32,152 bases of DNA. Source: Myxococcales bacterium. GTDB taxonomy: Bacteria > Myxococcota > B64-G9. The stretch lies in contig JAAZNF010000005.1 of the NCBI GenBank assembly GCA_012798435.1, forward strand, positions 1 to 32,152. Reading direction: 5' to 3'. The notes under the pieces are model-generated. The model was not told where the DNA came from. It searched no databases and saw only the letters and a program-made list of their open reading frames with translations. Shown here piece after piece: positions 5,314-29,370 of this stretch (position 1 is its first letter; every line of letters starts with the position of its first letter). A program made the position numbers and the translations under genes.

Positions 5314-5316
5314 TCC

Positions 5317-6195
5317 TTGAGGCTCTCTCACCCCTGCTGCCGGACCTTCGACGGGCGGTTTCGCTCACGGCTTGCGGCTTTTTCGGGCCGGGTGGCGAGC
5401 CGGAGCACCCACAGCGCGCTCGTATCTGGTGACGACGGCGAGGAAATCGTGCTTCTTACGCACGACCGGACACTGGTCCCCCGCGGGTTGAGGCTCCCCG
5501 AGGGCGCGCGCCTTCCGGATCCCGGCGCCGCCGTTCGCATCGACTGCGCCTGTTTCGAGCTTTCGCACCCCGACGGGAGCCGGGAGCGATGGTTCCTCGA
5601 TGGCCCGGGCCAGGATCTCTTCGTGCCCGTGCGAGGACAGCAACCGGCCGCGCCCCGTCCCGCGCTGGTCATGGATGCGCTGCCCGCGCGCACACGAGCG
5701 CTCCTCGGCGTGGCACCGGAAGCGCGGCTTTGCCCAGACATCGAGGCCCGACCGACCTTCGCTGAGCTCGAGCTCGACCGGTTGCGCGCCCTGCTCGAAG
5801 AACTCACCGCTGGCCTGCGCGGCCTCACGCATGGCCACGAGGTCTGCCTGGAGGAGGCCGTCGACGGGCTCCTGGGCCTCGGCAGCGGCTCGACGCCCAG
5901 CGGAGACGACGTCCTGGCGGGCGCCGCGGCGGCGGCCCGGACGCTGGGCCTGCCCGGTGCCCGGCGCCTGGGTGAGGCGTTGACGGATCTTTCGCCCGAC
6001 GCGACCACCGCGGCCGGCCGGGCCATGTTGCGCGAGGCGGCCGCGGGGTTTTTCGTGTTGCCGCTCTCTACCCTGGCAGGCGCCTGGCCGGCCGCCGGGC
6101 GCTCGACGATCGAGGCGCTCATCGGAGTCGGCGCTTCGAGCGGCGCCGACATGCTGGCTGGCTTCTTGGCGCAGACGGAGGCTCTATATGCCTGA
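5317..6195 (+). CDS. DUF2877 protein, AllH/YlbF-like carbamoyltransferase subunit
   Basis: This 292-residue protein belongs to the DUF2877 family. The E. coli member YlbF (AllH) is one of three proteins that together form oxamate carbamoyltransferase. The diagnostic motif GSGSTPSGDDVLAG is visible at about residues 189-202. The N-terminal segment from FSGRVASRSTHSALV matches the usual family start. The start codon is TTG at 5317, only 3 bases after the hydroxylase stop, with AAGGGG at 5305-5310 as the likely ribosome site; a GTG at 5391 is a weaker alternative. Its last 8 bases overlap the FdrA start. No signal peptide or membrane segment is seen, so it should act in the cytoplasm with the next two gene products. 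Confidence 0.85.
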   Translation: MRLSHPCCRTFDGRFRSRLAAFSGRVASRSTHSALVSGDDGEEIVLLTHDRTLVPRGLRLPEGARLPDPGAAVRIDCACFELSHPDGSRERWFLDGPGQDLFVPVRGQQPAAPRPALVMDALPARTRALLGVAPEARLCPDIEARPTFAELELDRLRALLEELTAGLRGLTHGHEVCLEEAVDGLLGLGSGSTPSGDDVLAGAAAAARTLGLPGARRLGEALTDLSPDATTAAGRAMLREAAAGFFVLPLSTLAGAWPAAGRSTIEALIGVGASSGADMLAGFLAQTEALYA

Positions 6196-7723: not shown

Positions 7724-9177
7724 AAAACCTGCCGCCCGAAAATCGCAACCCGCTGAAGATCCCCCAAACGGTCTTGCACCTGGGCCTGGCCGAGGTGGCC
7801 CAGGGCGCCCGCGGCGCCGGGGTGCCGGTGGTGGAGGTGGACTTCGTGCCCCCCTGCGGCGGAGATCCCCGCCGGATGGCGCTGCTCGACGAGCTTTCGC
7901 GCCCGGCCCTGGCCGCGCGCATCGAGGAGGCCAACCAGCAGGCGCTGAAGAGACTCCTCACGGCACAACCCCACCTGGTGGGCATCGGCCGGGCCCGCGA
8001 GGTGGTGCCCGGCATGCGCGACGATCTGTTCCTGCACGCCGGCCCGCCCATCTCCTGGGAGCGCATGTCCGGCCCGCTGCGCGGTGCGGTGATGGGTGGG
8101 TTGCTCCTGGAGGGCCGGGCCAAGGATCCCCAGGAGGCCGCCCGCCTGGCCGCCGCCGGCGCCGTGCGTTTCGAGCCCTGCCACGCCCACCAGGCGGTGG
8201 GCCCCATGGCGGGGCTGGTGACGCCGTCCATGCCGGTGTGGATCCTCGAGGATCGCGGCCCGAACGGAGCGGACGGCCGGCCGCGCCGCGCCTTCTGCAC
8301 CTTGAACGAGGGCCTGGGCAAGGTGCTGCGCTACGGGGCCTTCTCGTCCGAGGTGATCGAGCGGCTCCGCTTCATGGCCGAAACGCTGGCGCCGACTCTG
8401 CAAGCCGCCCTCGAAGCCCGCGGTCCGATCGATCTGAAAACGCTGTTCGCCCAGGCGTTGCAGATGGGCGACGAGGGCCACAACCGCAACCGGGCCGGCA
8501 CCTCGCTCTTGTTTCGCGAGCTGGCCCCCGCCCTGGCACGCACCGCCCGGGACGGTGAGACCGCCGCCCGGGTGCTGGAGTTCATCCACAAGAACGATCA
8601 CTTCTTCCTCAATCTGACCATGCCCATGGCCAAGCTGTTGCTCATGGCCACCGAGGGCATCCCGCTGGCCTCCTGCGTGTCCATCATGGCCCGCAACGGC
8701 ACGGACTTCGGCATCCAGCTTTCGGCCCTGCCAGGGCGCTGGTTCGTGGGCCCGGCGCAGGTGGTGCGCGGTTTGTACTTCCCCGGCTTCTCCGAGAAGG
8801 ACGCCAACCCCGACATCGGCGACAGCGCCATCACCGAGACGGCCGGCTTCGGCGGCTTCGCCATGGCCGCGGCCCCGGCCATCGTGCAATTCGTGGGGGG
8901 AACCCCCGAGGACGCCCTGAACACCACCCGCCGCATGGCCGGCATCACCCTCGGCGCCAACCCAAGCTTCGCCATCCCGTCGCTGGGCTTCAGCGGCGCC
9001 CCCACCTTGATCGACCTACGCAAGGTGATCGAGCTCGGCCGCCTGCCGACCATCAACACCGGCATCGCGCACCGCGAGCCGGGGGTGGGCCAGGTCGGGG
9101 CCGGGCTGGTGACCCCCCCCTGGGAATGCTTCCATCAGGCCTTCGAGGCCTTCGTCGCTCACGCCCGCGAGGCGTGA
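7720..9177 (+). CDS. DUF1116 protein, YlbE/AllG-like carbamoyltransferase subunit
   Basis: This 485-residue DUF1116 protein is homologous to E. coli YlbE (AllG). Family-typical blocks are CHAHQAVGPMAGL at about residue 154, GHNRNRAGTSLL at 253, the ATEGIPLASCVSIMARNGTDFG block, and a glycine/alanine-rich ITETAGFGGFAMAAAP segment. It starts inside the FdrA stop (ATGA overlap at 7720-7723), which implies translational coupling and fixed stoichiometry. The set of DUF2877, FdrA and DUF1116 is complete here. A carbamate kinase (AllK type), which in E. coli turns the product carbamoyl phosphate into ATP, is not present in the window. Confidence 0.9.
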   Translation: MKNLPPENRNPLKIPQTVLHLGLAEVAQGARGAGVPVVEVDFVPPCGGDPRRMALLDELSRPALAARIEEANQQALKRLLTAQPHLVGIGRAREVVPGMRDDLFLHAGPPISWERMSGPLRGAVMGGLLLEGRAKDPQEAARLAAAGAVRFEPCHAHQAVGPMAGLVTPSMPVWILEDRGPNGADGRPRRAFCTLNEGLGKVLRYGAFSSEVIERLRFMAETLAPTLQAALEARGPIDLKTLFAQALQMGDEGHNRNRAGTSLLFRELAPALARTARDGETAARVLEFIHKNDHFFLNLTMPMAKLLLMATEGIPLASCVSIMARNGTDFGIQLSALPGRWFVGPAQVVRGLYFPGFSEKDANPDIGDSAITETAGFGGFAMAAAPAIVQFVGGTPEDALNTTRRMAGITLGANPSFAIPSLGFSGAPTLIDLRKVIELGRLPTINTGIAHREPGVGQVGAGLVTPPWECFHQAFEAFVAHAREA

Positions 9178-9190
9178 CAAGGAGGAGAAC

Positions 9191-10096
9191 ATGCTTCCGA
9201 TCGAGTTGAGCATCCCGCTGGGCATCGGCACCCCGGCCTGGCCGACCTACGAGCCGTTGCAGATGAAATACTTCAAGAGGCTGGCCCCCAACGGCGCCAA
9301 CGGCCAGCTCCTCACCCACTCCAACCACGTGGGCACGCACCTGGACGGCGAGATCCACTTCTTCACCCCGGGCCGCGACATCGCCCAGCTCCCGCTCGAC
9401 TACCTGATGCACGCCGGCGCCATCGTGGACCTGTCGGACGCCGCCGGCGAGTACGACGTATACACCTCGAAGATGGTCGAGGAGCGGGTCGAGGTCCGCC
9501 CGGGCGACATCCTCATCATCCACACCGGCTTCCACCACTTCGGCTGGGATCAGCCGACCGCCAACGAGGTGAGCTACATGGTGAAGCACCCCGGTCCGGA
9601 CCGGGAGTTCGCCCGCTGGGCCAAGCGCAAACAGTTGCGCTGGATCGGCGTGGATTGCGGCAGCGCCGACCACCCCATGAACACCATCATCCGCAACTGG
9701 ATGCCGCGCGAGGCCCGCCAGGCCGAGCTGCACTTCCGCAAGAAATACAAGCGGCCGCTGGCGAAATTCTTCGACGACTCCAAGTACCAGCTCATGCACA
9801 TCGAGATGTTCGACCACGGCATCATCCACGCCGAGTGCCTGGGCGGGGACATCGACCTGCTGCTCAACCGCCGGGCCGTGATCGGCGCATTCCCCTGGCG
9901 GCTGGTGGACGGCGAGAGCTGCATCTGCCGTATCCTGGCCTTCGTGCCCGAGGAGGAGCACCAGCGGCTCATGCAAAAGAAGGCCAAGGCGGCACTCACC
10001 CGCTTCGGCGACATCGCCGGGGCGAAGAACGAGTGGCTGCACGCCGAGGGCCGGGCCCGCGCGGCCGCCCATCGCAAGAGGCGCTCGCGCGGGTGA
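9191..10096 (+). CDS. Cyclase-family metal-dependent hydrolase
   Basis: This 301-residue protein is of the cyclase family (PF04199), which includes kynurenine formamidase and isatin hydrolase. Members use a divalent metal, often Mn or Zn, to hydrolyse amide bonds, some of them in rings. The metal motif HxxxHxDxxxH is intact as His46, His50, Asp52 and His56 in HVGTHLDGEIH. Other family blocks are VDCGSADHP and the C-terminal HAECLGGDID. It follows the AllG-like gene by 13 bases with a strong AAGGAGGAG site, so it is the last gene of the operon. In this context a role in opening the oxidised heterocycle is the most economical idea. It has no signal peptide. Confidence 0.9.
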   Translation: MLPIELSIPLGIGTPAWPTYEPLQMKYFKRLAPNGANGQLLTHSNHVGTHLDGEIHFFTPGRDIAQLPLDYLMHAGAIVDLSDAAGEYDVYTSKMVEERVEVRPGDILIIHTGFHHFGWDQPTANEVSYMVKHPGPDREFARWAKRKQLRWIGVDCGSADHPMNTIIRNWMPREARQAELHFRKKYKRPLAKFFDDSKYQLMHIEMFDHGIIHAECLGGDIDLLLNRRAVIGAFPWRLVDGESCICRILAFVPEEEHQRLMQKKAKAALTRFGDIAGAKNEWLHAEGRARAAAHRKRRSRG

Positions 10097-10181: not shown

Positions 10182-12779
10182 ATGACCGAGATCACCGTCC
10201 CCCCCCAACCCGTCGTTCCGCCGCTCGCCATGCACGACGGCTACGGCCCGCTGCTGCGAGCCTTCTTCTCCCGCTACTTCGATCCCATCCGCTTCCCGCC
10301 CGAGGCCGCCGCGCGCATCCGGGAGATCGCCGAGCGCGGGCCGGTGGTGTACGTGGGGCGTTCCGCCAACCCGGTGCACTTCTTGTACCTCAACCACATG
10401 TGTCTGAAACACCGGCTCCCGCTAGCGGCCTTCGTCAATGAGGTGGACCCGATCCTGTTCGAGCCGGTCGGGCTCCTGCTCGGGCACATGCGCGACCTGG
10501 CCCGGGACGATTCGAACGAGCCACCGGACACCACCATCCATCCCGAGACGGTCCAGCTCGCTGCCATGCTCCAGGCGAACCGCTCCGCGCTGCTGTTTTT
10601 GGATCGCCCCGCCACCCTGACCAGCGTGGGCGGCGGAGACGGCACGCGCCTGCTCGAGACCCTGATCGAGGTGCAGCGGCGCATGGATCGCCCCATCCAC
10701 CTGGTACCCCACATGTTCGTGTGGGATCGCCACCCCGAGCGGGAATCGAAGAGCCTCACCGACGCGGTCTTCGGGCAACCCGAGGCCCCCGGCCTGCTGC
10801 GCTCGCTGTGGGTGCTGTGGCGCCGCTACCGCAACGCCTTCCTGAAGGTCGGCGAACCGCTGGATCTCAAGGCGTTCCTCGAGCAGGAGGGCCCGCCGGA
10901 CGCGGCACAACAAGCGCCGCGGCTTTTCGAGGCGCTGACGCAGCGGTTCTCGCTGGAAACCTACGGAGTCACCGGGCCGCGGCTCCGGCCGCACCAGGAG
11001 TTCATCCGCGACATCCTCTCGGATCCCCACCTCCTGGAGCACATCGCCTCCCAGGCGGCCGGCGACAACACCCGCACCGAGGCCCTGCGCCAGCGCGCCA
11101 ACGACCTATTGGACGAGATCGCCGCCGAGCCGCGCATCCGCTGGCCGCTGTTCCTCAACGCCGTGCTCAACGTCTTCTGGAGACGCATGTACGAGGGCGT
11201 GGTGGTGGATCAGGAAGGCTTCGAGCGCATCCGAGCCGCCCTGCGCAAGTCCCCGGTGGTGTTCTGCCCGGCGCACCGCTCGCACGTGGACTACCTCATC
11301 TTGAGCCAGATGTGCCTGCAGGAGGCGCTGCCGCTGCCCCACATCGCGGCGGGCATCAACCTGTCCTTCTGGCCCATGGGGCCCATCTTCCGCCACTCGG
11401 GCGCCTTCTTCATGCGCCGCTCGTTCAAGGGCGATGATCTGTACCCGGCGGTGTTCCGCACCTACCTGCGCCACGTCATGCGGGAAGGGTTTCCCATCGA
11501 GTTCTTCATCGAGGGCACCCGCTCCCGGACCGGAAAGCTCCTGCCGCCCAAGTTCGGCATCCTCTCCTGGCTGGTGCAGGCCTGCCTGGACGAATCCGAC
11601 GGCGACATCCACTTCGTGCCGCTGTCCATCGACTACGAAAAGATCGTGGAAGCGCGGAGTTACGTGCGGGAGCTCTCCGGGGGCGAGAAAGAGAAGGAGA
11701 ACGTGGTGGCCCTGGTGAAGGCCGGGGAGGCGCTGCGCAGCCGCTACGGCAAGATCTACCTGCAGGTGGGCAAGATCGTGTCGCTGCGCGAGTACCTCCT
11801 GCAGCGCGGCTACTCCGCCGCGCCCGACGAGGAGTCGCGCCGTCAGCTGATCTCGGCCCTGGCCCACGACATCCTCTTCCGTATCAATCAGGTGGCCACG
11901 GTCACTCCTTCCGGCCTGCTGGCGTTCTGCCTGCTCACCCACCGGCGGCGGGGCATGAGCGAGAAGAAACTGCTGGAGCGGGCCCGCTGGGCGGCCGAGT
12001 GGATCTCCCGCCGGCGGCCGGCGCGGTTCTCTCAGACCCTGTCCGACTTCCCGCGAGCGCTGGCCGAGGCCGCCTCCCGCTTTGCCCGGGATGGGCTGAT
12101 CACCCTGCAGGACACGGGGCTGGACGTGGTGCTCTCGCCGGTCGAGCACCGTCGCCTGGCGTTGGATTACTATCGCAACAACGTGATCCACCACTTCGTG
12201 CCGGCCTCGATCGTGATGCTGGCGCTCCAGTCCTTCACGGTGGAGGCAGTGCCGCGGGGCCCTCTCGCCGAACGCATCCAGGACCTGTCCCAGCTCCTCA
12301 AACAGGAGTTTCTGTTCCGCAGCCGACGCGAGTTCGACTCCGAGCTGCAGGAGGCCCTGACGGACCTGGGCCGCCTGGGCCTGCTGCGCTCGGAGGGCGA
12401 CTTCGTGGTCAAGAGCGAGGCGACCGGAGAGCTGGGCCAGGTGTTCTGCGGCGCCCTGGAGCACTTCCTGGAGTCGTACCTGTTGTGCGCCCGGGGCCTT
12501 TCGCTGCTCGAGCCCCAGCCGTTGCCCGAGCGCGAGTTCCAGAACCGCCTGCTGAAGCTCGGCGAGCACGAATTCGCCCAGGGGGAGCTGCGCTGGCCCG
12601 AGGCGCTATCGAGAGATCTGTTCCGCAACGCCATCCAGCGTTACACCGAGATGGGCCTTCTGGAACTCTCCTCTGCCGGGCGCAAGGACAGCCGCCTCGG
12701 CCTGACCCCACTGGGGAAGGACGCCGCTCGGCGCGAGGAGCTGTGCCAGCGCATCCGCCGTTTCCTGCCGCGGAACTAG
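10182..12779 (+). CDS. plsB: Glycerol-3-phosphate 1-O-acyltransferase PlsB
   Basis: This 865-residue protein is a PlsB-type acyltransferase that puts the first acyl chain on sn-glycerol-3-phosphate at the inner membrane. Acyltransferase block I, HRSHVD, spans His365-Asp370. Further blocks are GAFFMRRSFKG, EGTRSRTGK (from Glu444) and VPLSIDYEKI. The order and spacing match E. coli PlsB (807 residues), including IAAGINLSFWPMGPIF. The C-terminal PlsB domain (THRRRGMSEKKL onward) is complete. The N-terminal 300 residues contain a second, inactive-looking acyltransferase-like half. The 85-base gap after the catabolic operon and the unrelated function suggest it is a separate unit, although no clear terminator or strong promoter is visible in the gap. 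It is convergent with the CHAT gene, with 13 bases between stops. Confidence 0.95.
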   Translation: MTEITVPPQPVVPPLAMHDGYGPLLRAFFSRYFDPIRFPPEAAARIREIAERGPVVYVGRSANPVHFLYLNHMCLKHRLPLAAFVNEVDPILFEPVGLLLGHMRDLARDDSNEPPDTTIHPETVQLAAMLQANRSALLFLDRPATLTSVGGGDGTRLLETLIEVQRRMDRPIHLVPHMFVWDRHPERESKSLTDAVFGQPEAPGLLRSLWVLWRRYRNAFLKVGEPLDLKAFLEQEGPPDAAQQAPRLFEALTQRFSLETYGVTGPRLRPHQEFIRDILSDPHLLEHIASQAAGDNTRTEALRQRANDLLDEIAAEPRIRWPLFLNAVLNVFWRRMYEGVVVDQEGFERIRAALRKSPVVFCPAHRSHVDYLILSQMCLQEALPLPHIAAGINLSFWPMGPIFRHSGAFFMRRSFKGDDLYPAVFRTYLRHVMREGFPIEFFIEGTRSRTGKLLPPKFGILSWLVQACLDESDGDIHFVPLSIDYEKIVEARSYVRELSGGEKEKENVVALVKAGEALRSRYGKIYLQVGKIVSLREYLLQRGYSAAPDEESRRQLISALAHDILFRINQVATVTPSGLLAFCLLTHRRRGMSEKKLLERARWAAEWISRRRPARFSQTLSDFPRALAEAASRFARDGLITLQDTGLDVVLSPVEHRRLALDYYRNNVIHHFVPASIVMLALQSFTVEAVPRGPLAERIQDLSQLLKQEFLFRSRREFDSELQEALTDLGRLGLLRSEGDFVVKSEATGELGQVFCGALEHFLESYLLCARGLSLLEPQPLPEREFQNRLLKLGEHEFAQGELRWPEALSRDLFRNAIQRYTEMGLLELSSAGRKDSRLGLTPLGKDAARREELCQRIRRFLPRN

Positions 12780-12792: not shown

Positions 12793-15700
12793 CTACTCGC
12801 CCAGGCCAAACAGCACGAATCCGGCCCAGTGGCCCGGGTGCGGGAAATACCGCCGCACCACCTGCTGGGCCAGGCGCAGCGCCCGGGCGGGTGGGTGGTG
12901 GGACAGCTCGCGATAGAGCCTCTTCATGAGCATGGCCGTCGCCGGATCGGCGACGCGCCACAAGCTGGCGATGACGTTTTGGGCGCCCGCGGACAGGAAG
13001 GCGCGGGGCAGACCCGCCAACTCGTCTCCCGCCACGCCGCCCGTGAGCGCGGAGTCGCAGGCCGACAACGTCACCAGGCGAGCCGACAGGAACAGGTCGA
13101 ACACCTCCTGCGCGCTGAGGTCTCCATCCCCGTTGGGCCCCGGTGAGAGCAGCAGCCGGCTGCGCAAGGGGTTGCGCGCGTCGAAGGTGCCGTGGCAGGC
13201 CAGGTGAACGAACTCGGCGTTCGGCAAGCGTTCGATGACGCGGTCCTTGCGGGCGTTCCCCCGGAGCCAGCGTTCGGCGCCGGGGAGCTCTCGCGACACC
13301 TCCACCGCCTCCAGCTCCGAAAGCGGCAGCGCCGGCCGGCCCTCCACGGTCGGGTTGCCCACCACCAGGGCCTCCCCGCTCGGCCCCAGCCGCTGCTCGT
13401 CGCGCCGCCGTAGCTGGTCCAGCATCAGCGCCGAATGCAACCAGAAAAGATCGAAACGCTCCCCCAGGATTCGCCCACTGCTGTCGCGCAGCGCGGCGAA
13501 CGGAACGCGGGCCAGGATGCCGTGGGGCACGATCCCCAGGCGCTCTGCCCCTGCCAGTTGATCCTCGACGGGCTCCAGCAGATCCCGGTACAGGAGGGCG
13601 AGCTCCCCGTCCACGGGTTCGAAATGCTGCATGTCCTCACGCAGCTCCTTGACGCGCCGCTCGAGCTCCGCGCGAGCCACCGGCACGACGCGCAGCAGGC
13701 GCCGATCGCCTCTCAGCGCCCACACCATGACCTGCTCGCGGGCGACGAAGTAGTCGAGCAGCACGGTATCCGGCGGGATCCTGCCCTCCAGATCCTGCAA
13801 GCGGATCTCCTGCATCTCGATCCGCTCGGCCAGCTCCGGTTGGATGCGGCGCAGCTCGAGCAGCGCCGCGTTCTTGCGCTCCATCGCCTCCTGAACCCGC
13901 CGGGCCTCGTCTCCGGTCGGGTCTTGAAGCCGGGCCTTTCCGGCCAAGATGCGATCCGCGTCCTGGATGGCCGCAAGGCACTCGTTGGCCCGCCCTCCCG
14001 CGCGGATGTCGCGCCCGGCCAGCAGATCCAGCAGGCGGCGCGAACGCGAGCGTTCGACCATGACCAGGGCGTCGTCGTCCCGCCCGAGTCTCCACAGCAT
14101 CCGCACGGCGGACTCGTAGAGTTCATACTTGTCGTCGGACAGCCCCGCCTGCAGATCGCTACCCGCGACCACCCGCATGCTCTCGACCAGCCGCAGCGCT
14201 TCCCGGTAATGGGCCAGGGCCGGCTCCAGCTCTCCCCTGCCCGCCCGCAAGTCGCCGAGCACGCGCTGTGCCCGCCAGGCGACCTCCTTCAGCCCGAGCT
14301 CGGTGGCGATCCGCTCCGCCTCCAGGGCATGGTCTTGCGCCGCCTCGCCCCCGCCCTCCAGGGCGCGTTCCGCGTCCGCCAGGCCCAGCAGCACCTTCGC
14401 CTGGTTGAACCGATCCTGCGCCGCGCGGCTGAGCCTCAGGGCCTCGTCGAGGTTGCGCTTGGCGGCGGCCCGGTTCCCGGCGGCGAGCTCCAACAGGCCC
14501 AGGTTGCGAAGATCGTACGCCCGACCCAGCTCGTTCTTGCGCGCCTCGTCCAGGCGCAGGGCCTCCTCGAAGCGCTGGCGGGCCAGGGCGGTGTCCCCGG
14601 CCTCGCGGGCCACCGCTCCGAGGTTGTTGAGCTGAGTGGCCTCTTCGTCCGCCAATCGGGCCTGGCGCGCCTCCTCCAGCGCCTGGCCCAGACGCTGCTC
14701 CGCCTCCTTCAGGTCCCCCAGGTTGAGGGCGATCAACCCTCCCAGGCTCCGGGCCATCACGGCCAGGCGGCGATCCCCCGCCTGCTTTGCCAGCTCCAGG
14801 GCGCGGCCCTGGGCGGCCCAGGCTTCCGGGTAGTCCCCGTGGTACCAGTGCGCGTGCGCCTGCTCGATGAACCCCGCGGCCTGTCCGGCCGCGTCCATGA
14901 GCTCCCGCGAAATCCCCAGCGCTCGCTCGGCCTGCTGCAGCGCCGCGGAATAGTCGCCGGCGGCCAGATCGCAGCGCGCCAGGTCCAACCCGATAGCGGC
15001 CTCTTGCGCGCGTTCCTTGAGGGCCCGCGCGATCCCCATGGCCGCCAGGAAACGCTCGCGCGCCACGGCGACGTCGTTGAGGCGCCGCAGGTAGATCGTC
15101 CCCGCGTTCTGCTCGAGCTTGAGGCGGCTCTTTTGATCTCCCAACGACTCGTAGATGGAGCTGGCCTTGCGCAGGGCCGCCAGCGCTTCCGGATAGCGCG
15201 AGGCGGCGTCCAGGGCCAGCGCCAGGTTGGTCCAGGCACCGGCAGACTCGGCCGGGTTGCCGCTTCTCTCCAACGCCTCGGCCGCGTCGCGTAGCAGTTC
15301 CTCGGCCGCGCGGTGGTTTTGCAGGCGAGCCTCCAGCACACCCAGCAGCGCCTGCGCGCGCGCCACGGCCACGGCGTCTCCCGCCCGCCGGGCGATGTCC
15401 ACGATCTGGGTCTGGTGGAACCGCGCCCGCGAGAAATCCTCCAGGTGGAAGGAGCACTGGACCAATCCCTGTTCGATGCGGGGCAGCAGCTCCTCGCGTC
15501 CCAAGAAGCGCGCCCAGAAGCGCGTCCGCAAGAACGCCTCCTGCGCCTCCTTCCAGCGCTTGGCGCTGTATGCCGACATGGCGCGCTGGACATCCGCGGG
15601 CAGCGCGGCTTCGGCGCGTGCGCGCCGCTCGGTGGCGTCGAGCCCCGGATCACCGAGGACCTGCCAGGAAGGCACGGCGGCCTGCGGCCTGGGCCCGCGC

Positions 15701-18700
15701 CCGTTCAGCGCAGATACGGCCGCCGCCGGACCGGCACGCTCCAGGAGGGATAAAAGTTCCGGCAGGGCGGCCTGGACCAGATCCGACAGCCGATCGCCGG
15801 GCACCACGACGCTGGGGACCCCGGCGGCGATCATGGCCGCCAGCAACGCCTCCCGCGCTGGGACATCGCGTGGCTCGAGAAGAGCGACCCACAGACTGGC
15901 GCGCGCGGTCTGCTCGTCCAGCACGAGGCCCTCACGCCCTCCTCGCACCCAGGGACGGAGCAGGCGCAACGGGTTGCCCCGGAGCAACTCCTCCAAGAAC
16001 ACCACGCCCGCCTCCTCCCCGGCCAACGCGCGCGCCGCGGCACTCCCTTCGGTCGGGCGGACGTTCAGTTCGCCCAGGCGCTCCTTCAACGCCCACGCGA
16101 ACGTCGCCCCGGGCGCCCCGCCGCGCCACAGCCCGATGCGATAGTTGAAGCGCGGGCTCCGGCGCAGGCGGACCAGGTCCGAGGCGGTCGAAAGGCGGCT
16201 CACCGAAAGCCGCGCCCGCAACGGAACCCCATCCAGCTCGAGCTCCTCCAGCGGGATCTCGCTCGTTCCCGCGGCCAGCAGGACGGTGCGCCGACCCGCG
16301 AGTTCCTTGCGCCAGGGTTCCGCCAGCCACTCCGTCAGCCGGCGCCTGGCGAGCCGGGAGCGCTCGGGATCGCCGCCGCGCAACTCCTCCACCGTCTGCC
16401 GCAGCGCCGTGGCCGGCACCGGCAACGTCACCTCTCTCATCCCATCGCCCGTGATCCAGAAGCTGATCAGCCGCCGGGGGGTCGGGACGTAGACGAGCAT
16501 GCCTTCGCCAGGCAAGAGCGCCGCGCGGATCTCGGCGGCCGAGGCGGCCTGGCCCCAGAGCAGCCACAGGGCATTGGAAGCGGCTGTCCGGGCGCGTAGC
16601 TCAGCGAACTCCGCAAGCCCGGACTCGACCTCGCGCTTCGAGCGGGCCCGCTCCTCCTCCGTCGCCGCAGGCTCGAGCCGCGCCAGGGCCGCTTGCACGC
16701 GGATGACGATCTGTCGAAACCGCTGGAGCGACTCCGCCTCCTCGGGGACGAGCAGCTCCATGTCGTCGGTCTGCAGCCGATCCTGTCGGTCTCGCAAGCG
16801 GGCGTTTTCGAACCATTCCAGGGCCGCGGCGGTATCCTCCCGGGCCAGCGCCTCTTCTCCCAGCGATCGCAACAGCTCGTCCCGGGCCAGCCGGGCGGCA
16901 CGGTCGTGCCGTGTCCCGGCGAGTTCGCTCGGCAACGACAGCAGCGCCTTGGCCCTGTCCAGCGCAGGGGCGCCGGAGAGCCGCCAGGCCACGGGCACCA
17001 GCCCAAATTCCTCGCTGCGGCGTTGGTTCTCGCGCCGCAGCGCGTCCGCCGCCTGTGTGTCGCCCTCGAACTCGCGCAAGACGGCCAGGTTGTCACAGGC
17101 CAGCGTCGCCGCAATCAGCTCCTCGCGGTTCCGCGGATCCTCCGCCGGACAGGCGCGCGCCAGATCTTCGCCCGCCTGCTCCAGACGCCGGACCGCGTGA
17201 TCCAGAAACGCGAAAGATTGCATGAGCTGGCGCTCGGGATCCGATTGGGCCGCGAGGAGGGGTTGCGAGAGCGCCGCCCGGAATCCAGCGACGCCCCGGG
17301 CGCTGGCAAAACGACGGAGCAGAGCGGGGTCTACGAGATCGCCGGCCCGCTCCACCCGGCCCTGGATGGCGGACAGGCGCTGGTCCACCTCCAGCCAGCT
17401 CACGCCGCTCTCGTCGGCCGCGGCAAGGCTCGCCAGGTTGGCACCTCCGGCAGCCAGCCCCTCTGCCTCCTGAGCGGCGTCGGCATACGACAGCGACTCG
17501 CGCACCTGGCGGGCGGCCTGCGAAAGCTCGCCGGCGCGGGCCAGCCGATCGGCCTGCTGGCTGGCCGCTCGAGCGAAATCCGGGGCCAGGGCTTCCACCC
17601 CTTCCCGTTGCATCTCGACGGAAAGAAGCTCGAGGGCGCGCGCGCCGGCTGCCAGCGCCAACCATGGATCTCCCATTCGCCAGAAGAGCCGGCTCTGCAG
17701 CATCGCCAGCAGGTACCGCTCTTGTGCCCGGCTGAATCCGAAGGCCGCCCGCGACCCGCGCCCGCTGACCGCTACCGACACCCCGCCGCCGGCGTCTTCC
17801 GCCTCGCCGAGCCGGGCAAGGAGCCTCTCGGCCTCGGCGAAGGCTCCGGCGGCCTCCTCGAGCCTGTTCGCCAGCATCAGGTTGTTGGCCAGGTTGCGCT
17901 GGCAGATCTCCTCCCGCGCCACCTGCTTCTCCTCCCGGTAGATCCGGCAAGAGCGGCGGAAGGCCTCGATCGCCGCCAGGTGGTCTTCCGCCATCTGGTG
18001 CGCTGCCCCCAGCGCGCTCCACAGCCAGCCGAGGCGAGCGCGCCGGGCCGGCTCGCGCTCCGCGTGCTCGATGGCGGCGGCGAAGCTCCGCCGAGCGTCT
18101 TCATGTTCTCCCGCCAGGAAGGCGGCCCGCCCGAACTGCTCGAGGAACACCTGCCGGGTCACCGGGTGGCGGAACGGGAATCCCGCGGCTTCGCGCCTCT
18201 TGAGGAACTGATGGGCCTGGCGGTGGTTGCCAAGCAAGAAATGCACGTTGCCCAGGTTCTGCAGCAGGTCTGCTTCGGTCTCCGGTTGGGTGCGCGCGTC
18301 GAGCAACGTGAGCGCCGTATCGTAGGCCGCCGCCGCGCGGCTCAGCGCTTCGCCATCTCCGTCTTGTCTTCCGCGCTGCTCCTCGATCCAGCCCAGGGTC
18401 TGGTGGGCGTACGGCAGCCGCTCGTCGAGCGCCAACGCCTCGCGCAGGTGGCGCTCCGCCTCCGAGAAGTGCCGGGGCGGCTCGTGGTAGGTCAACGCCA
18501 GCCCGACCAGGTAGTGCGAGAGTTCGTTCGGGCGCGCCGCCAGGAGATCGCGGCAGCGCTGGAGCGCGGGCGCGATCTGGCCCGAGCGCGCCATGAGATC
18601 CAGCCAGCGCCGCCACAACACCGGATCGTCGTCGTATTGCTCCAACATGCGCTGCGCTACGCGCAGCGCGCCCGCGATCTCACCGCGCGAGGTGAGTTCG

Positions 18701-20685
18701 TCCAAGGTGCGCCGCCCGAGCTCCTCCAGTTCGCGCCGCGCCGGCACCGCCGCGGCCGGATGATCCGGGAACCGCCGCAGCAGGTCCACCGCTCGATCCA
18801 GGGCCGCGCCGGTATCGCCAGCGCCGCGGTCCAGCCGGGAGAGTGCCAGCAGCGCCCGACCGGCCAGATCCGGAGGCGTGTCCTTGCTTTCGAACACAGC
18901 CGTGAGGGCCGCCCGCGCCCGGCCCTGCTGGTGCTGGCCCAGGTACCACTCGCCGAGGGCCAGGCCGGCCAGGCTGCGGAGATCCGGCAGGTGTTCGCCC
19001 TCCTGTATCAGCTCTTGCAGGCGCTCCAGCGCCGGGCGCGCGTCGGCCGCCTCGGGCAGTGACAACGAAAGCCCCACCAGGAATTCCGCGGCCCGGCGTC
19101 TTTCGGCCGGGGTGGCCCGCAAGGCCTTCAGCACGGCCAGCGCATCGCCTCGGGCGCCTTCCGGATTGCCGGTGCGGTTCCACAGCTCCGCGCGCTGCAG
19201 CAGGGCCTTCACCGCCAACCGGCTCTGGCTCTTCTGCGCTTCGAGGGGCTGCGCAAGCGCCTCGAGCGCCTCGTCGGGACGACCGGCCCGATCCAGGATC
19301 TGGGCGCGCAACAAGGCGCGCCGCGTTTCGGATACCGGCAACGACTCGACCTCACCGAGGAACTCCTCGATACGCGCGCGCCGTTCCAGAAGCTGCGCCC
19401 CGGACAGCCCCGCGGGCAGCTCGCGCTGGACGCGCGCCGCCAGCAAGCCCCATCGAGCCCGGTTCCGGATGGAGGCCAGGCGCGCCTTCTCCGACAGAGC
19501 CGAGAACATCTCGACCGCCTCTTGCAGCCGGCCCGCCTCGAGCAAACGCTCTCCCTGAAGCACCCGCGAAAGCTCCACCTCGCCGAATGCCCCGAGCTCG
19601 CGCTCGGCCCGGCGCAGCCAGTACAGGGATTGCTGCAGGTCGGGCGCGCCGTTGGCACGCGCCAACATGTCCTTGCGACTGCCGACGGGAGCGCCCAGCC
19701 CGGTGATGGAAGTCCGCCAGATGTCCAACCCGCCTTCACTGCGGCTGGCGTAGTACACATCGTTGCCCATGATCCGGGGCTGGATGTCGGACGAGAGTCC
19801 GGTCGTCAGCGGGAATGGCTCCGAGGCGCGGCCGTCCGAGGCGATCTCCACCCGCCACAAGGAGGGGCGATCGGCGGTGTCGATGCGACCGTCGCCATTG
19901 GTGTCGTCCTGGAAGCGGGAGAACACCACCCGCCACGGCGCGACCTCGCCGCCAAAGGCGGGGAACGCCTCGGGGCGATCGCAAGCGGTGAGTGGCCGCT
20001 CGCCGCCATCGGCAAGATCGTGCAGCCAGATGCAGGGAGGCCCCTCGCGATTCGGCGAGGTGAAGGCCAGGTAGCGCCCGTCCGGCGAGACCGCGGGGTC
20101 GAACCCGTCGCGGCGGGTCAGCCGCGAGACGCTGCGACTGGCGGCGTCCAGGAGGTAGATGCCCTCGCTGTCGCTGTCGGGCTGGAGCCGCGTGAAGGCC
20201 AACCGGCCATCCGGGAGAAATGCCGGCTGTCGCTCCGCGGTGTTGCGATCGGTGAGCCGGTCGAGCCTGCCGCTCGCCAGATCCAGCAGGAAGATGTCCC
20301 CCTTGGCGTCGAGACGCTGGGAGACGAAGGCCAGCTTCTTTCCGTCGGAGGAGAGGGCCGGATCGAAATCGTCGGCGGGATCGCTGGTGACGCGCCGGGG
20401 CGTTCCCCCGGAGAGCGGCCGCACCCAGATCTCCCGGTCCTGTCCCTGGTTGGACACGTAGAAAAGCCGGCGTCGGACGATGTCGACGACCGGGGAGAGT
20501 TCGTCTTCCAACCCGCGGGTGACCTGGCGCGACTCAAAAGAGACAACGTCTTCGGTCGGCCCCTCGATGGCGTGCCGACCCGCGGCGCACCCGCCGGAGA
20601 AGACCAGCAGCAAGGCCGCGAAGGCACGACCTCCGCCCGTGGCCCTACACGTGGAAGACGTCGATTTCCTGCTTGAGACGCGCAC
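12793..20685 (-). CDS. Giant TolB-propeller/TPR protein with degenerate and intact CHAT domains
   Basis: This 2630-residue protein appears exported: Arg/Lys-rich start, hydrophobic AFAALLLVF, then SGGC with Cys33, an atypical lipobox. Residues about 45-335 are PD40/TolB propeller blades (DDFDPALSSDGKKLAFVS style). About 345-1150 are TPR repeats, then a coiled region. About 1395-1680 resemble a CHAT fold without the catalytic His and Cys. About 1700-2180 are canonical TPRs. About 2240-2630 form an intact CHAT domain with catalytic His2498 (HLACHG) and Cys2543 (SACDS). CHAT domains are caspase-like proteases that usually act in the cytoplasm after TPR-mediated sensing. The GTG at 20685 overlaps the chemoreceptor gene by 41 bases; the only in-frame later options, a TTG near 20607 and adjacent CTGs, would remove the signal peptide. 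Its target is unknown. Confidence 0.88.
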   Translation of the reverse strand: MRVSSRKSTSSTCRATGGGRAFAALLLVFSGGCAAGRHAIEGPTEDVVSFESRQVTRGLEDELSPVVDIVRRRLFYVSNQGQDREIWVRPLSGGTPRRVTSDPADDFDPALSSDGKKLAFVSQRLDAKGDIFLLDLASGRLDRLTDRNTAERQPAFLPDGRLAFTRLQPDSDSEGIYLLDAASRSVSRLTRRDGFDPAVSPDGRYLAFTSPNREGPPCIWLHDLADGGERPLTACDRPEAFPAFGGEVAPWRVVFSRFQDDTNGDGRIDTADRPSLWRVEIASDGRASEPFPLTTGLSSDIQPRIMGNDVYYASRSEGGLDIWRTSITGLGAPVGSRKDMLARANGAPDLQQSLYWLRRAERELGAFGEVELSRVLQGERLLEAGRLQEAVEMFSALSEKARLASIRNRARWGLLAARVQRELPAGLSGAQLLERRARIEEFLGEVESLPVSETRRALLRAQILDRAGRPDEALEALAQPLEAQKSQSRLAVKALLQRAELWNRTGNPEGARGDALAVLKALRATPAERRRAAEFLVGLSLSLPEAADARPALERLQELIQEGEHLPDLRSLAGLALGEWYLGQHQQGRARAALTAVFESKDTPPDLAGRALLALSRLDRGAGDTGAALDRAVDLLRRFPDHPAAAVPARRELEELGRRTLDELTSRGEIAGALRVAQRMLEQYDDDPVLWRRWLDLMARSGQIAPALQRCRDLLAARPNELSHYLVGLALTYHEPPRHFSEAERHLREALALDERLPYAHQTLGWIEEQRGRQDGDGEALSRAAAAYDTALTLLDARTQPETEADLLQNLGNVHFLLGNHRQAHQFLKRREAAGFPFRHPVTRQVFLEQFGRAAFLAGEHEDARRSFAAAIEHAEREPARRARLGWLWSALGAAHQMAEDHLAAIEAFRRSCRIYREEKQVAREEICQRNLANNLMLANRLEEAAGAFAEAERLLARLGEAEDAGGGVSVAVSGRGSRAAFGFSRAQERYLLAMLQSRLFWRMGDPWLALAAGARALELLSVEMQREGVEALAPDFARAASQQADRLARAGELSQAARQVRESLSYADAAQEAEGLAAGGANLASLAAADESGVSWLEVDQRLSAIQGRVERAGDLVDPALLRRFASARGVAGFRAALSQPLLAAQSDPERQLMQSFAFLDHAVRRLEQAGEDLARACPAEDPRNREELIAATLACDNLAVLREFEGDTQAADALRRENQRRSEEFGLVPVAWRLSGAPALDRAKALLSLPSELAGTRHDRAARLARDELLRSLGEEALAREDTAAALEWFENARLRDRQDRLQTDDMELLVPEEAESLQRFRQIVIRVQAALARLEPAATEEERARSKREVESGLAEFAELRARTAASNALWLLWGQAASAAEIRAALLPGEGMLVYVPTPRRLISFWITGDGMREVTLPVPATALRQTVEELRGGDPERSRLARRRLTEWLAEPWRKELAGRRTVLLAAGTSEIPLEELELDGVPLRARLSVSRLSTASDLVRLRRSPRFNYRIGLWRGGAPGATFAWALKERLGELNVRPTEGSAAARALAGEEAGVVFLEELLRGNPLRLLRPWVRGGREGLVLDEQTARASLWVALLEPRDVPAREALLAAMIAAGVPSVVVPGDRLSDLVQAALPELLSLLERAGPAAAVSALNGRGPRPQAAVPSWQVLGDPGLDATERRARAEAALPADVQRAMSAYSAKRWKEAQEAFLRTRFWARFLGREELLPRIEQGLVQCSFHLEDFSRARFHQTQIVDIARRAGDAVAVARAQALLGVLEARLQNHRAAEELLRDAAEALERSGNPAESAGAWTNLALALDAASRYPEALAALRKASSIYESLGDQKSRLKLEQNAGTIYLRRLNDVAVARERFLAAMGIARALKERAQEAAIGLDLARCDLAAGDYSAALQQAERALGISRELMDAAGQAAGFIEQAHAHWYHGDYPEAWAAQGRALELAKQAGDRRLAVMARSLGGLIALNLGDLKEAEQRLGQALEEARQARLADEEATQLNNLGAVAREAGDTALARQRFEEALRLDEARKNELGRAYDLRNLGLLELAAGNRAAAKRNLDEALRLSRAAQDRFNQAKVLLGLADAERALEGGGEAAQDHALEAERIATELGLKEVAWRAQRVLGDLRAGRGELEPALAHYREALRLVESMRVVAGSDLQAGLSDDKYELYESAVRMLWRLGRDDDALVMVERSRSRRLLDLLAGRDIRAGGRANECLAAIQDADRILAGKARLQDPTGDEARRVQEAMERKNAALLELRRIQPELAERIEMQEIRLQDLEGRIPPDTVLLDYFVAREQVMVWALRGDRRLLRVVPVARAELERRVKELREDMQHFEPVDGELALLYRDLLEPVEDQLAGAERLGIVPHGILARVPFAALRDSSGRILGERFDLFWLHSALMLDQLRRRDEQRLGPSGEALVVGNPTVEGRPALPLSELEAVEVSRELPGAERWLRGNARKDRVIERLPNAEFVHLACHGTFDARNPLRSRLLLSPGPNGDGDLSAQEVFDLFLSARLVTLSACDSALTGGVAGDELAGLPRAFLSAGAQNVIASLWRVADPATAMLMKRLYRELSHHPPARALRLAQQVVRRYFPHPGHWAGFVLFGLGE

Positions 20686-23227
20686 TTTTCTCGGCCAAGG
20701 ACTGCGTGGCCTCGCCCATCTCCTGCGCGGCCTTGGCGTGGTTCTTGGCGATCTCCCGCACCTGCTCGATGACCCGCAGGATATTGTCCGAAACCACCAT
20801 CTGTTCCGACAGGGTCGTGCGGGTCCGCTCCGCCGAGTCTCGCATGTCCCCCACCGTGGCCAGCGCCAGGCGGTTCTCCTGGGCCTGCTGGTTCACCAGC
20901 TTGCCGATGGCCTGCGTGCTCTGCAAGGTATCGCGGAAGGCGGCCAGCAGCTCCTCGCCGCTGCGGGTCTGCCCGGAGGCGGTCTCCGAGATCCGGCCGG
21001 CCAGCTCGGCTACCTGGTTGATCTCGCGGGTGACCACCGCGCTGGAGCGAGCCTGAGTCTCCGTGAACTTGGCGATTATCTCCACGTTCTCGGCCGCGCG
21101 CTGGACGTTGACCAGGATCTGGTTGAGCGATTCCCCCGCCTGTTGGGCCAGGTTCACGCCCTCGTTGACCGTGGCGCCGCCGCCGCGCATGACGCGGATG
21201 GCCTCGCCGGAGGCTTCCTGGATGTCGGTGATCATCTGCCCAATCTCCCGAGTGGAAGACCCGGTACGCTCGGCCAGGGAGCGGATCTCGTCGGCCACCA
21301 CCGCGAATCCCCGGCCGTGCTCGCCGGCCTGGGCGGCGATGATGGCCGCGTTGAGGGCTAGCAGGTTGGTCTGATCGGCGATCTCCTCGATCACTCCCAG
21401 GATGGAGCCGATGGCCTCGATGCGGTTGCCGAGCCCCAGAATGACGCTGGAGGCCTGCCGGGTGGACTCTACGATCCGATCCATGCCCTCGATGGTGCGC
21501 CGCACGGCCACCGCGCCTTCCTGGGCCACGTCGATGGCCCGGCGGGTCATCTGGGCGGTCTCCGCCGCCCGGTTGGTCACCTCGGCCACGGAGCGATCGA
21601 CCTCCGACATCGACTGGGCGGAGCGTACGGCGCCGGCGCTGAGCTCGTGGATGACCTGGGCCACCTCCTGCACGGCCCGGGTCATGCGCTCCACGATCTG
21701 ACCGGTGCGATCGACTGTCCCCTGCAACGAATCGCATTCCTTCAACATGAGCGAGAAACCCTGGCTCACCTTGTCGGCGACCTCGGCGGTCTCGCGGGCG
21801 GAGAGGGCCAGTTTTTTGAGCGCCTCGGTGCCGCTACCGATGGTCTGGTTGAGGCTGTGGACGGCGTTGCTGGTTTCGAGCACCGACTGAGCCTGCACAT
21901 CGGCCCCGGTGGCGATGGCCGAGGCCTTGAGCAATAGCCGGTCGCAGGTGCTGGCGATCTGGTTGGCCAGGGTGGAGACGTCGCGCACCATCCGCCGCAG
22001 GTTATCCGCCATGGCATGCAGCGCGTCCCCCAGCTCGCCGATCTCGTCGTCTCCCACCACGGTCAGATCCCGGCGCAGCTCGCCGCGGGCCACCTCGCCG
22101 GTGAACATCACCATGCGCCGGATGGTGCCACCCAGGTACGCCGCGAACAGCCATCCCAGGCCGGCCGCCACGACCAGCGAGCACAGCAGGATGCCCAGCG
22201 TCAGCCCCAGCAGGGTGCGCTGCGTGCTGAACAAGGCCGCGGCCCGCACCGGCGCGATGAGCACCCTCGACGAGTCCGCGCTGAAGGCGAAGGCGTAGCT
22301 GCCGGAGCCCGCGGGATCCGTCACGGTGCCCGAGACCCCGGGGCCGCGCAGGGCGACGATGGTCCGGTACAGTTCGCCAGAGAGGGGCTCGGCGTCCTGG
22401 CTGCGAAAGGCCGCCCCGTTCTGGTTCACCAGGTGCAGGAAGACGCCCTCCCCGAGCTTGCGGGATTCGGTGGTGAGGTACTTGTCGATCTCGCTCCGTC
22501 CGGCACCATCTTGCTCCAGGATACGCGCCCCGCGCTCCACCAGCACCAGGCCGCTCTCCATGCGCCGGCCCAGTTCCTCGGCCATGAGCCGGTTGGCGTG
22601 GAAGTTGCTGAAGGCTCCCACCAGCAGGGCTGGCATGCAGGCCAGGCCGAACCCCAGCATGATGGTCTTGCTTCCGAGGGACAACCCGCGCCGCCGCGGT
22701 CCGCCCCTGCCGTAACTTGACGCCGCCTCCAGCGCCTCTCCGGAACGAGCGCCAGGGGAGAAGAAGAACACCATGCCCATCGCCTGCGCCCCGAACAACC
22801 CCAGCAGCAGGAAGTAACCCAGGTACTGAACCGGGAGGTCGGCCTCCCAGATCATGAACAGGCCCACCCCGTTCATGAGCAGCACGGGACAGACGCCGCC
22901 GGTGATGGCCAGCTTGAGGTACAGACTGCCGGCTGCCCGTCGGGCCCTGTCGATGATGGCGTCCTCCAGTTTCTTGCCGGTCAGGTGGGCCTCGTAGAAA
23001 TCCATGAGCGGCTGGTAGAAGCGCAACACCAGAAAGACGGTGCACCAGCCTATCAGCACGGCGCCGGCCCACAGCACGATCTCGAACAGGAGCCAGTGAC
23101 CCTTCGGCGGGGGAAAGAACCAGATGATGAACAGGTTGCTGACCAATACCACCAGGCCCCACAAACCGACCAACAGGCCGGCCGTCCGGATGGGTGAAAC
23201 GTGGCGAGAACGGTCGGTTTCGTTCAC
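20645..23227 (-). CDS. Methyl-accepting chemotaxis protein with multi-TM N-terminus
   Basis: This 860-residue chemoreceptor transmits signals to CheA/CheW. TM helices lie at about residues 15-37, 44-70, 102-127, 134-155 and 187-207. A periplasmic-type loop of about 120 residues follows, then TM6 at about 330-355, a HAMP domain and a long MCP signalling domain. The hairpin tip has EEIADQTNLLALNAA followed by I630, Q633 and E636, where Tsr has Glu, Arg and Glu. There is no CheR-binding pentapeptide at the C-terminus (EIDVFHV). The start is GTG at 23227 with GAGGG just upstream; extending upstream would run antisense through the next gene. A sigma-70-like promoter lies at 23281-23254. No che genes are nearby, so its array partners must be encoded elsewhere. 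Confidence 0.92.
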   Translation of the reverse strand: MNETDRSRHVSPIRTAGLLVGLWGLVVLVSNLFIIWFFPPPKGHWLLFEIVLWAGAVLIGWCTVFLVLRFYQPLMDFYEAHLTGKKLEDAIIDRARRAAGSLYLKLAITGGVCPVLLMNGVGLFMIWEADLPVQYLGYFLLLGLFGAQAMGMVFFFSPGARSGEALEAASSYGRGGPRRRGLSLGSKTIMLGFGLACMPALLVGAFSNFHANRLMAEELGRRMESGLVLVERGARILEQDGAGRSEIDKYLTTESRKLGEGVFLHLVNQNGAAFRSQDAEPLSGELYRTIVALRGPGVSGTVTDPAGSGSYAFAFSADSSRVLIAPVRAAALFSTQRTLLGLTLGILLCSLVVAAGLGWLFAAYLGGTIRRMVMFTGEVARGELRRDLTVVGDDEIGELGDALHAMADNLRRMVRDVSTLANQIASTCDRLLLKASAIATGADVQAQSVLETSNAVHSLNQTIGSGTEALKKLALSARETAEVADKVSQGFSLMLKECDSLQGTVDRTGQIVERMTRAVQEVAQVIHELSAGAVRSAQSMSEVDRSVAEVTNRAAETAQMTRRAIDVAQEGAVAVRRTIEGMDRIVESTRQASSVILGLGNRIEAIGSILGVIEEIADQTNLLALNAAIIAAQAGEHGRGFAVVADEIRSLAERTGSSTREIGQMITDIQEASGEAIRVMRGGGATVNEGVNLAQQAGESLNQILVNVQRAAENVEIIAKFTETQARSSAVVTREINQVAELAGRISETASGQTRSGEELLAAFRDTLQSTQAIGKLVNQQAQENRLALATVGDMRDSAERTRTTLSEQMVVSDNILRVIEQVREIAKNHAKAAQEMGEATQSLAEKSARLKQEIDVFHV

Positions 23228-23253
23228 CTGGTGTCCCTCGAACGAACGGGCCC

Positions 23254-23281
23254 ATTGTACCTTGAAGTATCGAAGAGTCAA
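23254..23281 (-). promoter_or_regulatory. Sigma-70-like promoter for the chemoreceptor-CHAT unit
   Basis: On the minus strand a TTGACT -35 element (23281-23276) and a TACAAT -10 element (23259-23254) are separated by 16 bases, about 27 bases before the GTG start. Both match the consensus at five of six positions. Confidence 0.7.
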
Positions 23282-23299
23282 ACGAATCGCCGGGTTGCA

Positions 23300-23328
23300 T
23301 TGGCCTTTCGAGCGGTCTCGACTATAAT
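23300..23328 (+). promoter_or_regulatory. Sigma-70-like promoter for the MopE-repeat lipoprotein
   Basis: A perfect TATAAT -10 element at 23323-23328 is preceded by TTGGCC (23300-23305, four of six matches) with a 17-base spacer. The ATG is at 23351, giving a leader of roughly 15 bases with GAGGAG as the ribosome site. It is back to back with the chemoreceptor promoter. Confidence 0.65.
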
Positions 23329-23350
23329 GGAGCTGGTTGCGAGGAGCCTC

Positions 23351-24763
23351 ATGAAAATAACGATTTGCCTCATGGTGCTTGCGCTTTCCCTCAGCCTGGC
23401 CGCGTGCTCCTCCGGAGGGGAGGCCGGCTGCCGCGTCGACACCGACTGCCCCTCGGGCCGGTACTGCGCCATCCTGTCCGGGGATTGCGTGTACGACTGT
23501 GTGCTGGCGTCGGACTGTCCCGAGCGGTACCGCTGCACCGGCCGGGGCCGGTGCGAGCTCGGCTGCTCCATCACCCACGGCGGCGTCGAGGACTGTGACG
23601 GGGTGGACAACGACTGCGACGGCGACACCGACGAGGATCTCTCGCCGCGTTCCTGCGAGCGCACGAACAGCTACGGCACCTGCACGGGCACCGAAACGTG
23701 CGTGTCCACCGCCTGGCAGTGCGACGCGCTTGTCCCGGCGCGCGAGATCTGCGACGGAGTGGACAACAACTGCGACGGGCAGACCGACGAGGGGTTCAAC
23801 TCGGGGCAACCCTGTTCCGGAGAGGGCGCCTGCCCGGACGGCGTGTGGGAGTGCGTGGACTCCACCGGGCAGCGCTGCAGCACCCTGCCGGGCGGCTCGG
23901 ACGACCGCTCCAGCGCGGAGGTCTGCGACGGTGTGGACAACGACTGCGACGGCGAGACCGACGAGGACATCCCGCCGCTGGACGAGTGCGAGCTGGGGGC
24001 CGCCGCCCACGACGGCAAGGACAACAACTGCAACGGCGTGCCCGACGAGCCCGGCTGCATGGTGCGGGTGCCCTACACCCTGGAAGGGTTCGTCGTGCTG
24101 ATCGACAAGTACGAGGCCACCGTCTTCGAAAACGCCGACTGCACCGGACAGCGCTTCGGCGAGGAGAAGTCCAGCTACGACTACCCCGCCGGCTGGCCGC
24201 CCAACGACACCAGCGTCACCGTGACCCTGTACGCCTGCTCCCTGCCGGGCCTTCGCCCCTCGCGCAACTTGACCTGGTACCAGGCGCGCCGGGCCTGCCA
24301 GGCTTCGGGCAAGCGCCTGTGCACCAAGCGGGACTGGTCCATGGCCTGCGGCGCCGACTGGGACGGCAGCAACTTCCAGTATCCATACGCCGACCGGGTC
24401 TACAGTCCCACCGCCTGCAACACCTTCACCCGTCTCGTCGGCGACACGGTGGCGAGCGGATCCCTGGACACCTGCCGCTCGCGGATCGGCAGCTATGACC
24501 AGAGCGGCAACCTGTGGGAATGGACGGATTCGCCCTGCGAGAAAGACGCCGCCAAGCGCTCGGTGCAGGGCGGCGCCTACGAGTGCTGGACCCAGACGAC
24601 CTCCGGCTGGGAGGCGTGCGACTTCGACGACCCGGACCAGCGGCGCACGGACATCGAGCAGCGCCACCAGTGCCAGTACCCCATGACCTACACCGACTAC
24701 TGCGACTCGCCCCTGACCGCCAACGCCACCATGGGCTTCCGCTGCTGTTGGGATCCGCCCTGA
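23351..24763 (+). CDS. Lipoprotein with MopE-type repeats and FGE-like C-terminal domain
   Basis: This 470-residue surface lipoprotein has signal MKITICLMVLALSLSLAAC with lipid-site Cys19. A Cys-rich segment (residues 27-72) leads into MopE-type repeats. Three have the pattern CDGVDN(D/N)CDGxTDE and a fourth is HDGKDNNCNGVPDE. MopE-type repeats are thought to bind metal (Ca or Cu) and stabilise extracellular proteins. From about residue 237 a formylglycine-generating-enzyme/sulfatase-modifying-factor-like fold appears: VLIDKYEAT, TWYQARRACQASGKRLCT, SGNLWEWT, GGAYEC and a terminal GFRCC. The catalytic CX4C pair of true FGE is not visible (the next Cys after GGAYEC is about 13 residues on), so a non-enzymatic or ligand-binding role is more likely. 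The start is supported by GAGGAG at 23341-23346. Confidence 0.88.
   Translation: MKITICLMVLALSLSLAACSSGGEAGCRVDTDCPSGRYCAILSGDCVYDCVLASDCPERYRCTGRGRCELGCSITHGGVEDCDGVDNDCDGDTDEDLSPRSCERTNSYGTCTGTETCVSTAWQCDALVPAREICDGVDNNCDGQTDEGFNSGQPCSGEGACPDGVWECVDSTGQRCSTLPGGSDDRSSAEVCDGVDNDCDGETDEDIPPLDECELGAAAHDGKDNNCNGVPDEPGCMVRVPYTLEGFVVLIDKYEATVFENADCTGQRFGEEKSSYDYPAGWPPNDTSVTVTLYACSLPGLRPSRNLTWYQARRACQASGKRLCTKRDWSMACGADWDGSNFQYPYADRVYSPTACNTFTRLVGDTVASGSLDTCRSRIGSYDQSGNLWEWTDSPCEKDAAKRSVQGGAYECWTQTTSGWEACDFDDPDQRRTDIEQRHQCQYPMTYTDYCDSPLTANATMGFRCCWDPP
23596..23976 (+). repeat. Three dispersed copies encoding the MopE motif
   Basis: Near-identical runs encoding CDGVDN(D/N)CDG begin at about 23594, 23751 and 23928, roughly 157 and 177 bases apart. 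Each keeps the gtggacaac core. They are coding repeats within the lipoprotein gene, not a mobile or CRISPR repeat. Confidence 0.8.
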
Positions 24764-25297: not shown

Positions 25298-25327
25298 TTG
25301 ATGCCTTACCATGTTTTACCGCACAAT
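25298..25327 (+). promoter_or_regulatory. Weak candidate promoter before the beta-helix gene
   Basis: TTGATG at 25298-25303 and CACAAT at 25322-25327 are 18 bases apart, each with four or more matches to the sigma-70 consensus, about 35 bases before the ATG. It is tentative. Confidence 0.35.
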
Positions 25328-25361
25328 GGCAATCGTCGTGCGCAGGAGAGTGGAGGTGACC

Positions 25362-27410: not shown

Positions 27411-27445
27411 ACTGGACCCGGACTGGTATTTCCACGGGAGCACCC

Positions 27446-27940: not shown

Positions 27941-27968
27941 AGCGACATCGCCACCGAGGGAGAATCCC

Positions 27969-29348: not shown

Positions 29349-29370
29349 GCGGTTTTTCGGCGGGGTTCGC

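Follow-up and report, generated by a model that had tools for sequence, protein, structure and literature searches.

The 2630-residue protein encoded on the minus strand at positions 12793–20685 of the window (the whole stretch of 32,152 nucleotides analysed here), with a GTG start codon at 20685, is predicted to consist of two TPR–linker–CHAT units behind a TolB-like β-propeller. Alignment and profile comparison show that the two CHAT copies are homologous and that the catalytic His-Cys pair is kept in the C-terminal copy and lost from the middle copy. We found 15 such double-CHAT proteins in five families, all within a single phylum (Myxococcota); two of the 15 are truncated where their contigs end. 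The order of parts, a signal sequence, a PD40 propeller, TPRs, a pseudo-CHAT, further TPRs and a CHAT, was established from the ORF, Pfam and the family relatives. An ORF artefact was rejected, as every relative has this frame open and the full-length relatives align from the propeller to the CHAT.

All parts of the gene are read from the minus strand. By inspection, the N-terminus is lipoprotein-like (residues 1–33, 20587–20685), with a hydrophobic stretch ending in Cys33 (SGGC). The propeller occupies residues 50–345 (19651–20538) and is recognized by Pfam PD40 at 2.7e-21, while the TolB-like model of NCBIfam stays below its cut-off. It is followed by a first TPR region (residues 346–1249, 16939–19650), a helical linker (residues about 1268–1384, 16534–16884) and the middle domain (residues about 1385–1690, 15616–16533). 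A second TPR region (residues 1691–2290, 13816–15615) leads to the C-terminal CHAT (residues about 2300–2630, 12796–13788). A preliminary description of this DNA had placed a TPR array before each CHAT half, and Pfam bears this out, with TPR_12 matches that are strong ahead of the C-terminal copy (9.1e-29, seven stretches) and weaker ahead of the middle copy (9.4e-09).

The middle domain is almost certainly a pseudo-CHAT, as judged from profile–profile comparison. The preliminary description held that a region at about 1395–1680 follows the CHAT pattern, and the motif LPGEGMLVYVP is found at residues 1391–1401 of the translated ORF, within this domain. Comparing nine middle rows from the window's family with eight C-terminal CHAT rows gave a match over 298 collinear columns (97.3%, E 2.4e-11) with a score of 87.8, against a maximum of 23.7 in 200 column shuffles, 24.4 for the reversed profile, and 14–24 for segments of the same protein not touching the middle domain. 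The catalytic lobe of the middle domain alone scored 64.7, against a maximum of 17.0 in 100 shuffles. Adding the linker raised the score to 140 over 410 columns, so that the shared homologous unit includes the pre-CHAT helical linker, and a larger set of 13 middle copies and 26 CHATs, separately aligned, reached 157. A profile search against CHAT had been named as a check on this assignment; the profile–profile comparison agrees with it, but the Pfam CHAT model gave no match in the middle domain for nine rows at up to E 1. NCBIfam likewise contained no match for the domain, and the middle profile found no sequence match among the CHATs of solved structure.

Structure prediction, proposed earlier as a further check, was of help for the first half of the domain, which was modelled well, and not for the catalytic half, where pLDDT falls below 50 (67.6 overall). 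Fold matches of this model are scattered and weak, led by the ciliary protein 7sqc_R1; Craspase TPR-CHAT chains rank high among them (E from 4e-3), interspersed with other folds. The CHAT assignment is therefore based on the sequence profiles and not on the model. The missing Pfam and NCBIfam matches, the low-confidence model and its weak, scattered fold matches are the points in favour of an unrelated alpha/beta fold that merely resembles CHAT. We regard that reading as extremely improbable and reject it, since the profile scores stand far above the shuffled, reversed and same-protein controls over about 300 collinear columns, the catalytic lobe alone is also far above its shuffles, and one relative carries a fossil AHG at the exact place of the catalytic His.

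That relative (G194) keeps ILYLGAHGALS in its middle copy, with the His exactly in register, and is the only one of 14 middle copies with His in this column; the others hold L, D, P, A, R or K. The Cys column holds P, A, S, G, L, V or I, and no Cys in any copy. The middle copies of the split family protein and of the truncated G015 protein likewise lack the catalytic pair, and the middle domain of the window's protein contains no His and no Cys anywhere. As the preliminary description had noted, the places of the lost catalytic His and Cys read VVFLEELLRG (residues 1561–1570, 15976–16005) and SLWVALLEPRD (residues 1597–1607, 15865–15897), with neither residue present. Its view of one copy as a degenerate pseudo-protease stands, given the absence of the dyad from the middle copies and the homology found by controlled profile comparison. 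Judging from the alignment, the loss of the pair in the middle copy is an old event. His2498 (codon 13192–13194) and Cys2543 (codon 13057–13059), assigned to the C-terminal CHAT in the same description, are in place, and both residues are kept in 15/15 C-terminal copies and in 11/11 other CHATs of the comparison.

The C-terminal CHAT (PF12770) is matched by Pfam at residues 2363–2627 with E 2.7e-62 and 211.3 bits against a cut-off of 24. Its model has a pLDDT of 75.5, and Foldseek matches it to Csx29, DdvA and separase. Ciliary C1 central pair proteins (7sqc, 7n6g, 9ijj) also match this fold. Another contig of the same genome encodes an additional CHAT protein (L025:9483–12845, minus strand), which consists of a single TPR-CHAT unit and has an intact His-Cys pair.

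Relatives were collected by several routes. A direct whole-protein search of named genomes found nothing, and the middle-domain search of the phylum returned matches in seven other genera of the window's family, where the relatives are long proteins with 33–41% identity, one of them split over two contigs. With the middle profile, three more families yielded ORFs of 2531–2728 aa, and another yielded truncated ORFs. The middle-domain alignment proved too variable as a query in some searches, and the propeller alignment worked; the relatives found with the propeller sit in MAGs labelled Myxococcota or Deltaproteobacteria. Plasmids searched with the middle domain and viral contigs searched with the propeller gave no relative, so that a mobile or phage origin is unsupported. 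Mean identity within the window's family is about 34–35% for the middle copy vs 54% for the C-terminal CHAT, and in the distant group 32% vs 45%; the middle copy thus changes faster than its C-terminal counterpart. It remains in frame and recognizable in five families despite this faster change, which makes it likely that it is retained for a purpose other than catalysis.

A tree of CHAT domains puts the middle copies in a single group (94/95) and the C-terminal copies in a second one (70/75), the pattern to be expected when the five families inherit a single ancestral double-CHAT protein. The preliminary description had proposed an ancient duplication. The middle unit may instead have come by fusion from another TPR-CHAT gene, a course of events that we consider quite possible: CHAT genes are abundant in the phylum (121/193 genomes), and the free tree keeps the middle copies apart from the C-terminal copies. 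However, holding the two groups together in an AU test made the tree just 0.75 log units worse (p = 0.46), several middle copies being long branches, and the best matches of the middle profile in genome searches are the C-terminal CHATs of its own family (E about 1e-19 vs 8.5e-16 for the best other family CHAT). A joint group is thus neither demanded nor rejected, and the tree is compatible with internal duplication as well as with fusion.

The location of the protein was approached from its N-terminus, judged by eye. All 12 proteins with a readable start have a hydrophobic N-terminus with a Cys near its end; the lipobox is canonical in four of these 12 and looser in the rest, including SGGC of the window's protein. 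The lipoprotein-like N-terminus together with the TolB-like propeller suggests export, with a location probably outside the cytoplasm, and the protein is probably exported and lipid-anchored. The lipobox of the window's protein is non-canonical, which counts against lipid anchoring.

Upstream of the CHAT gene, and overlapping its start by 41 bp, lies a gene for a protein of about 860 aa with six hydrophobic segments, a HAMP domain and an MCP signalling domain (20645–23227, minus strand). This overlapping MCP gene is found at the same place in 6/6 relatives from the window's family with a contig extending that far; in the family genome of lowest completeness (70%) neither the double-CHAT gene nor the MCP gene was seen. 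The ORF listed for it, 1340 aa long (20645–24667, minus strand), overstates the gene: the alignment with relatives begins only at about residue 483 of this ORF, which gives the length of about 860 aa with an approximate start codon. The tip of the MCP hairpin, LNAAIIAAQAGEHGR, is identical in 7/7 family members. CheW and other MCP genes are present in the genome. In the distant group the MCP neighbour is absent, and a different gene, homologous among its members and encoding a protein of about 1200 aa, precedes the CHAT gene (L093:1541–5182, L094:12339–15974, L095:987–5528, L096:9252–13085 and L097:2114–5698). The MCP is thus a trait of the window's family and not a general partner of these proteins. 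The protein of about 1200 aa, which presumably resembles an AsmA-type envelope protein, has an N-terminal hydrophobic segment and a weak NCBIfam match to the LIC_11026 family; one copy scanned with Pfam gave no match.

On the other side, a glycerol-3-phosphate acyltransferase-like gene (10182–12779, plus strand) and the CHAT gene are convergent, and four family members have a close relative of the acyltransferase-like gene beside or near the CHAT gene. Further away, positions 1608–10096 (plus strand) carry genes for a xanthine dehydrogenase-like enzyme, the oxamate carbamoyltransferase subunits AllG and AllH, and a CoA ligase-like protein, a run that looks like a cluster for the breakdown of purines or allantoin. 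The stretch 25311–31317 holds a group of chondroitinase B-like, beta-helix and GH5 cellulase-like genes.

As the best explanation we tentatively propose an exported two-unit protein with a live C-terminal CHAT, a pseudo-CHAT for docking or allostery, and output via the MCP. The propeller and TPRs would bind a ligand or partner in the envelope. The pseudo-CHAT might act as a module for docking and allostery, holding back the active CHAT or bringing its substrate into position, and the released activity or a change of shape could be passed by the co-encoded HAMP-MCP membrane protein to the cytoplasm. We infer the peptidase activity, the regulatory effect of the pseudo-CHAT and the connection to the MCP, and the MCP would be the output route of the CHAT protein in the window's family only. 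A regulatory or docking role of the pseudo-CHAT is plausible by analogy with its best precedents, Csx29 CHAT1 and FLIP(L), while regulation in particular is possible rather than probable. In the window's family, the co-encoded membrane sensor and the live/dead protease pair hint at a built-in signalling protease switch.

Two other readings bear on this explanation from the side of each CHAT copy. The degenerate CHAT could have a purely structural part, as spacer or scaffold of a long solenoid of TPRs, without regulating the C-terminal CHAT. Few parts of the protein change faster than it does (mean identity 35% vs 54% for the CHAT), and the active-site places of the middle copies hold no common replacement residue, as a spacer would allow; but the middle domain has its own invariant positions and is kept in all double-CHAT proteins seen in the five families, and we think a spacer somewhat unlikely. 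At the other end of the chain, we infer that the C-terminal unit is a working caspase-like cysteine peptidase, as its intact pair would predict. The opposing reading, that neither CHAT cleaves in the cell and that the protein is a binding sensor or scaffold whose His-Cys pair is structural or vestigial, draws on the facts that no substrate is known and that the nearest solved match of extracytoplasmic type, DdvA, was deposited as a transmembrane anti-sigma factor with CHAT. Set against it, the pair is kept in every C-terminal copy and every other CHAT compared, as a catalytic pair would be, which leaves a purely non-catalytic protein unlikely.

A more specific version of the proposed explanation is a one-chain switch in the envelope, in which the dead CHAT would restrain the live one until a signal from outside is bound by the propeller or TPRs, with the MCP as direct target or as relay; we consider this version unlikely. 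If true, a one-chain switch driving an MCP would be a new type of input for chemosensory-type signalling. A pseudo-enzyme and its active relative in one chain also provide a natural test-bed for the restraint of proteases. The live/dead pair lies in a single gene, is old and has outlived the split of bacterial families. These proteins add probably extracytoplasmic members to a domain family known mostly for its CRISPR-linked proteases and for separase, and one family of them has a conserved chemoreceptor-like partner.

Among known systems, Csx29, the TPR-CHAT protein of type III-E CRISPR (Craspase), is the best fold match of the C-terminal CHAT model (E 6e-14) and shares the order of TPRs followed by a His-Cys CHAT. 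The protease region of Csx29 pairs a pseudo-caspase lobe (CHAT1) with an active one (CHAT2), and CHAT1 forms part of the contact surface with Cas7-11 (PMC10028731). There, the pseudo lobe lies within a single CHAT, whereas the dead part of the present protein is an entire second CHAT unit that has a linker and TPRs of its own. The middle domain aligns over the counterparts of both lobes, which indicates that a whole second CHAT has died and that it is not a pseudo lobe of the Csx29 type. Membership in Craspase or in a known defence system was rejected: the NCBIfam Csx29 model reached 42.9 bits against a cut-off of 300, no CHAT or caspase-like defence model of PADLOC matched (only a generic TPR model, at 27.6 bits), and no Cas7-11 or cas genes were found among the genes of the window scanned with Pfam.

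DdvA (8rot, 8rw5), a transmembrane anti-sigma factor with CHAT, is similar in being a membrane-associated CHAT protein and matches the C-terminal CHAT in fold (E 3e-13) and in sequence (2.3e-06); by its structure entries alone, it differs as an anti-sigma protein with one CHAT. Separase shares a caspase-like protease behind long helical repeats (fold match E about 5e-10), but is eukaryotic and has neither a propeller nor a second CHAT unit. In the literature, covered as full text minus most subscription journals, we found no paper on a system like this one, either under CHAT together with methyl-accepting chemotaxis proteins or under CHAT together with catalytically inactive caspases in bacteria. 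A parallel in logic is the human pseudo-caspase FLIP(L), which is catalytically inactive and both regulates and pairs with caspase-8 (PMC7586951). The analogy, one of logic only, is that of a dead caspase homologue regulating a live relative; FLIP(L) is a protein of its own and works by forming heterodimers, whereas in the double-CHAT proteins the dead and live copies are carried in one chain.
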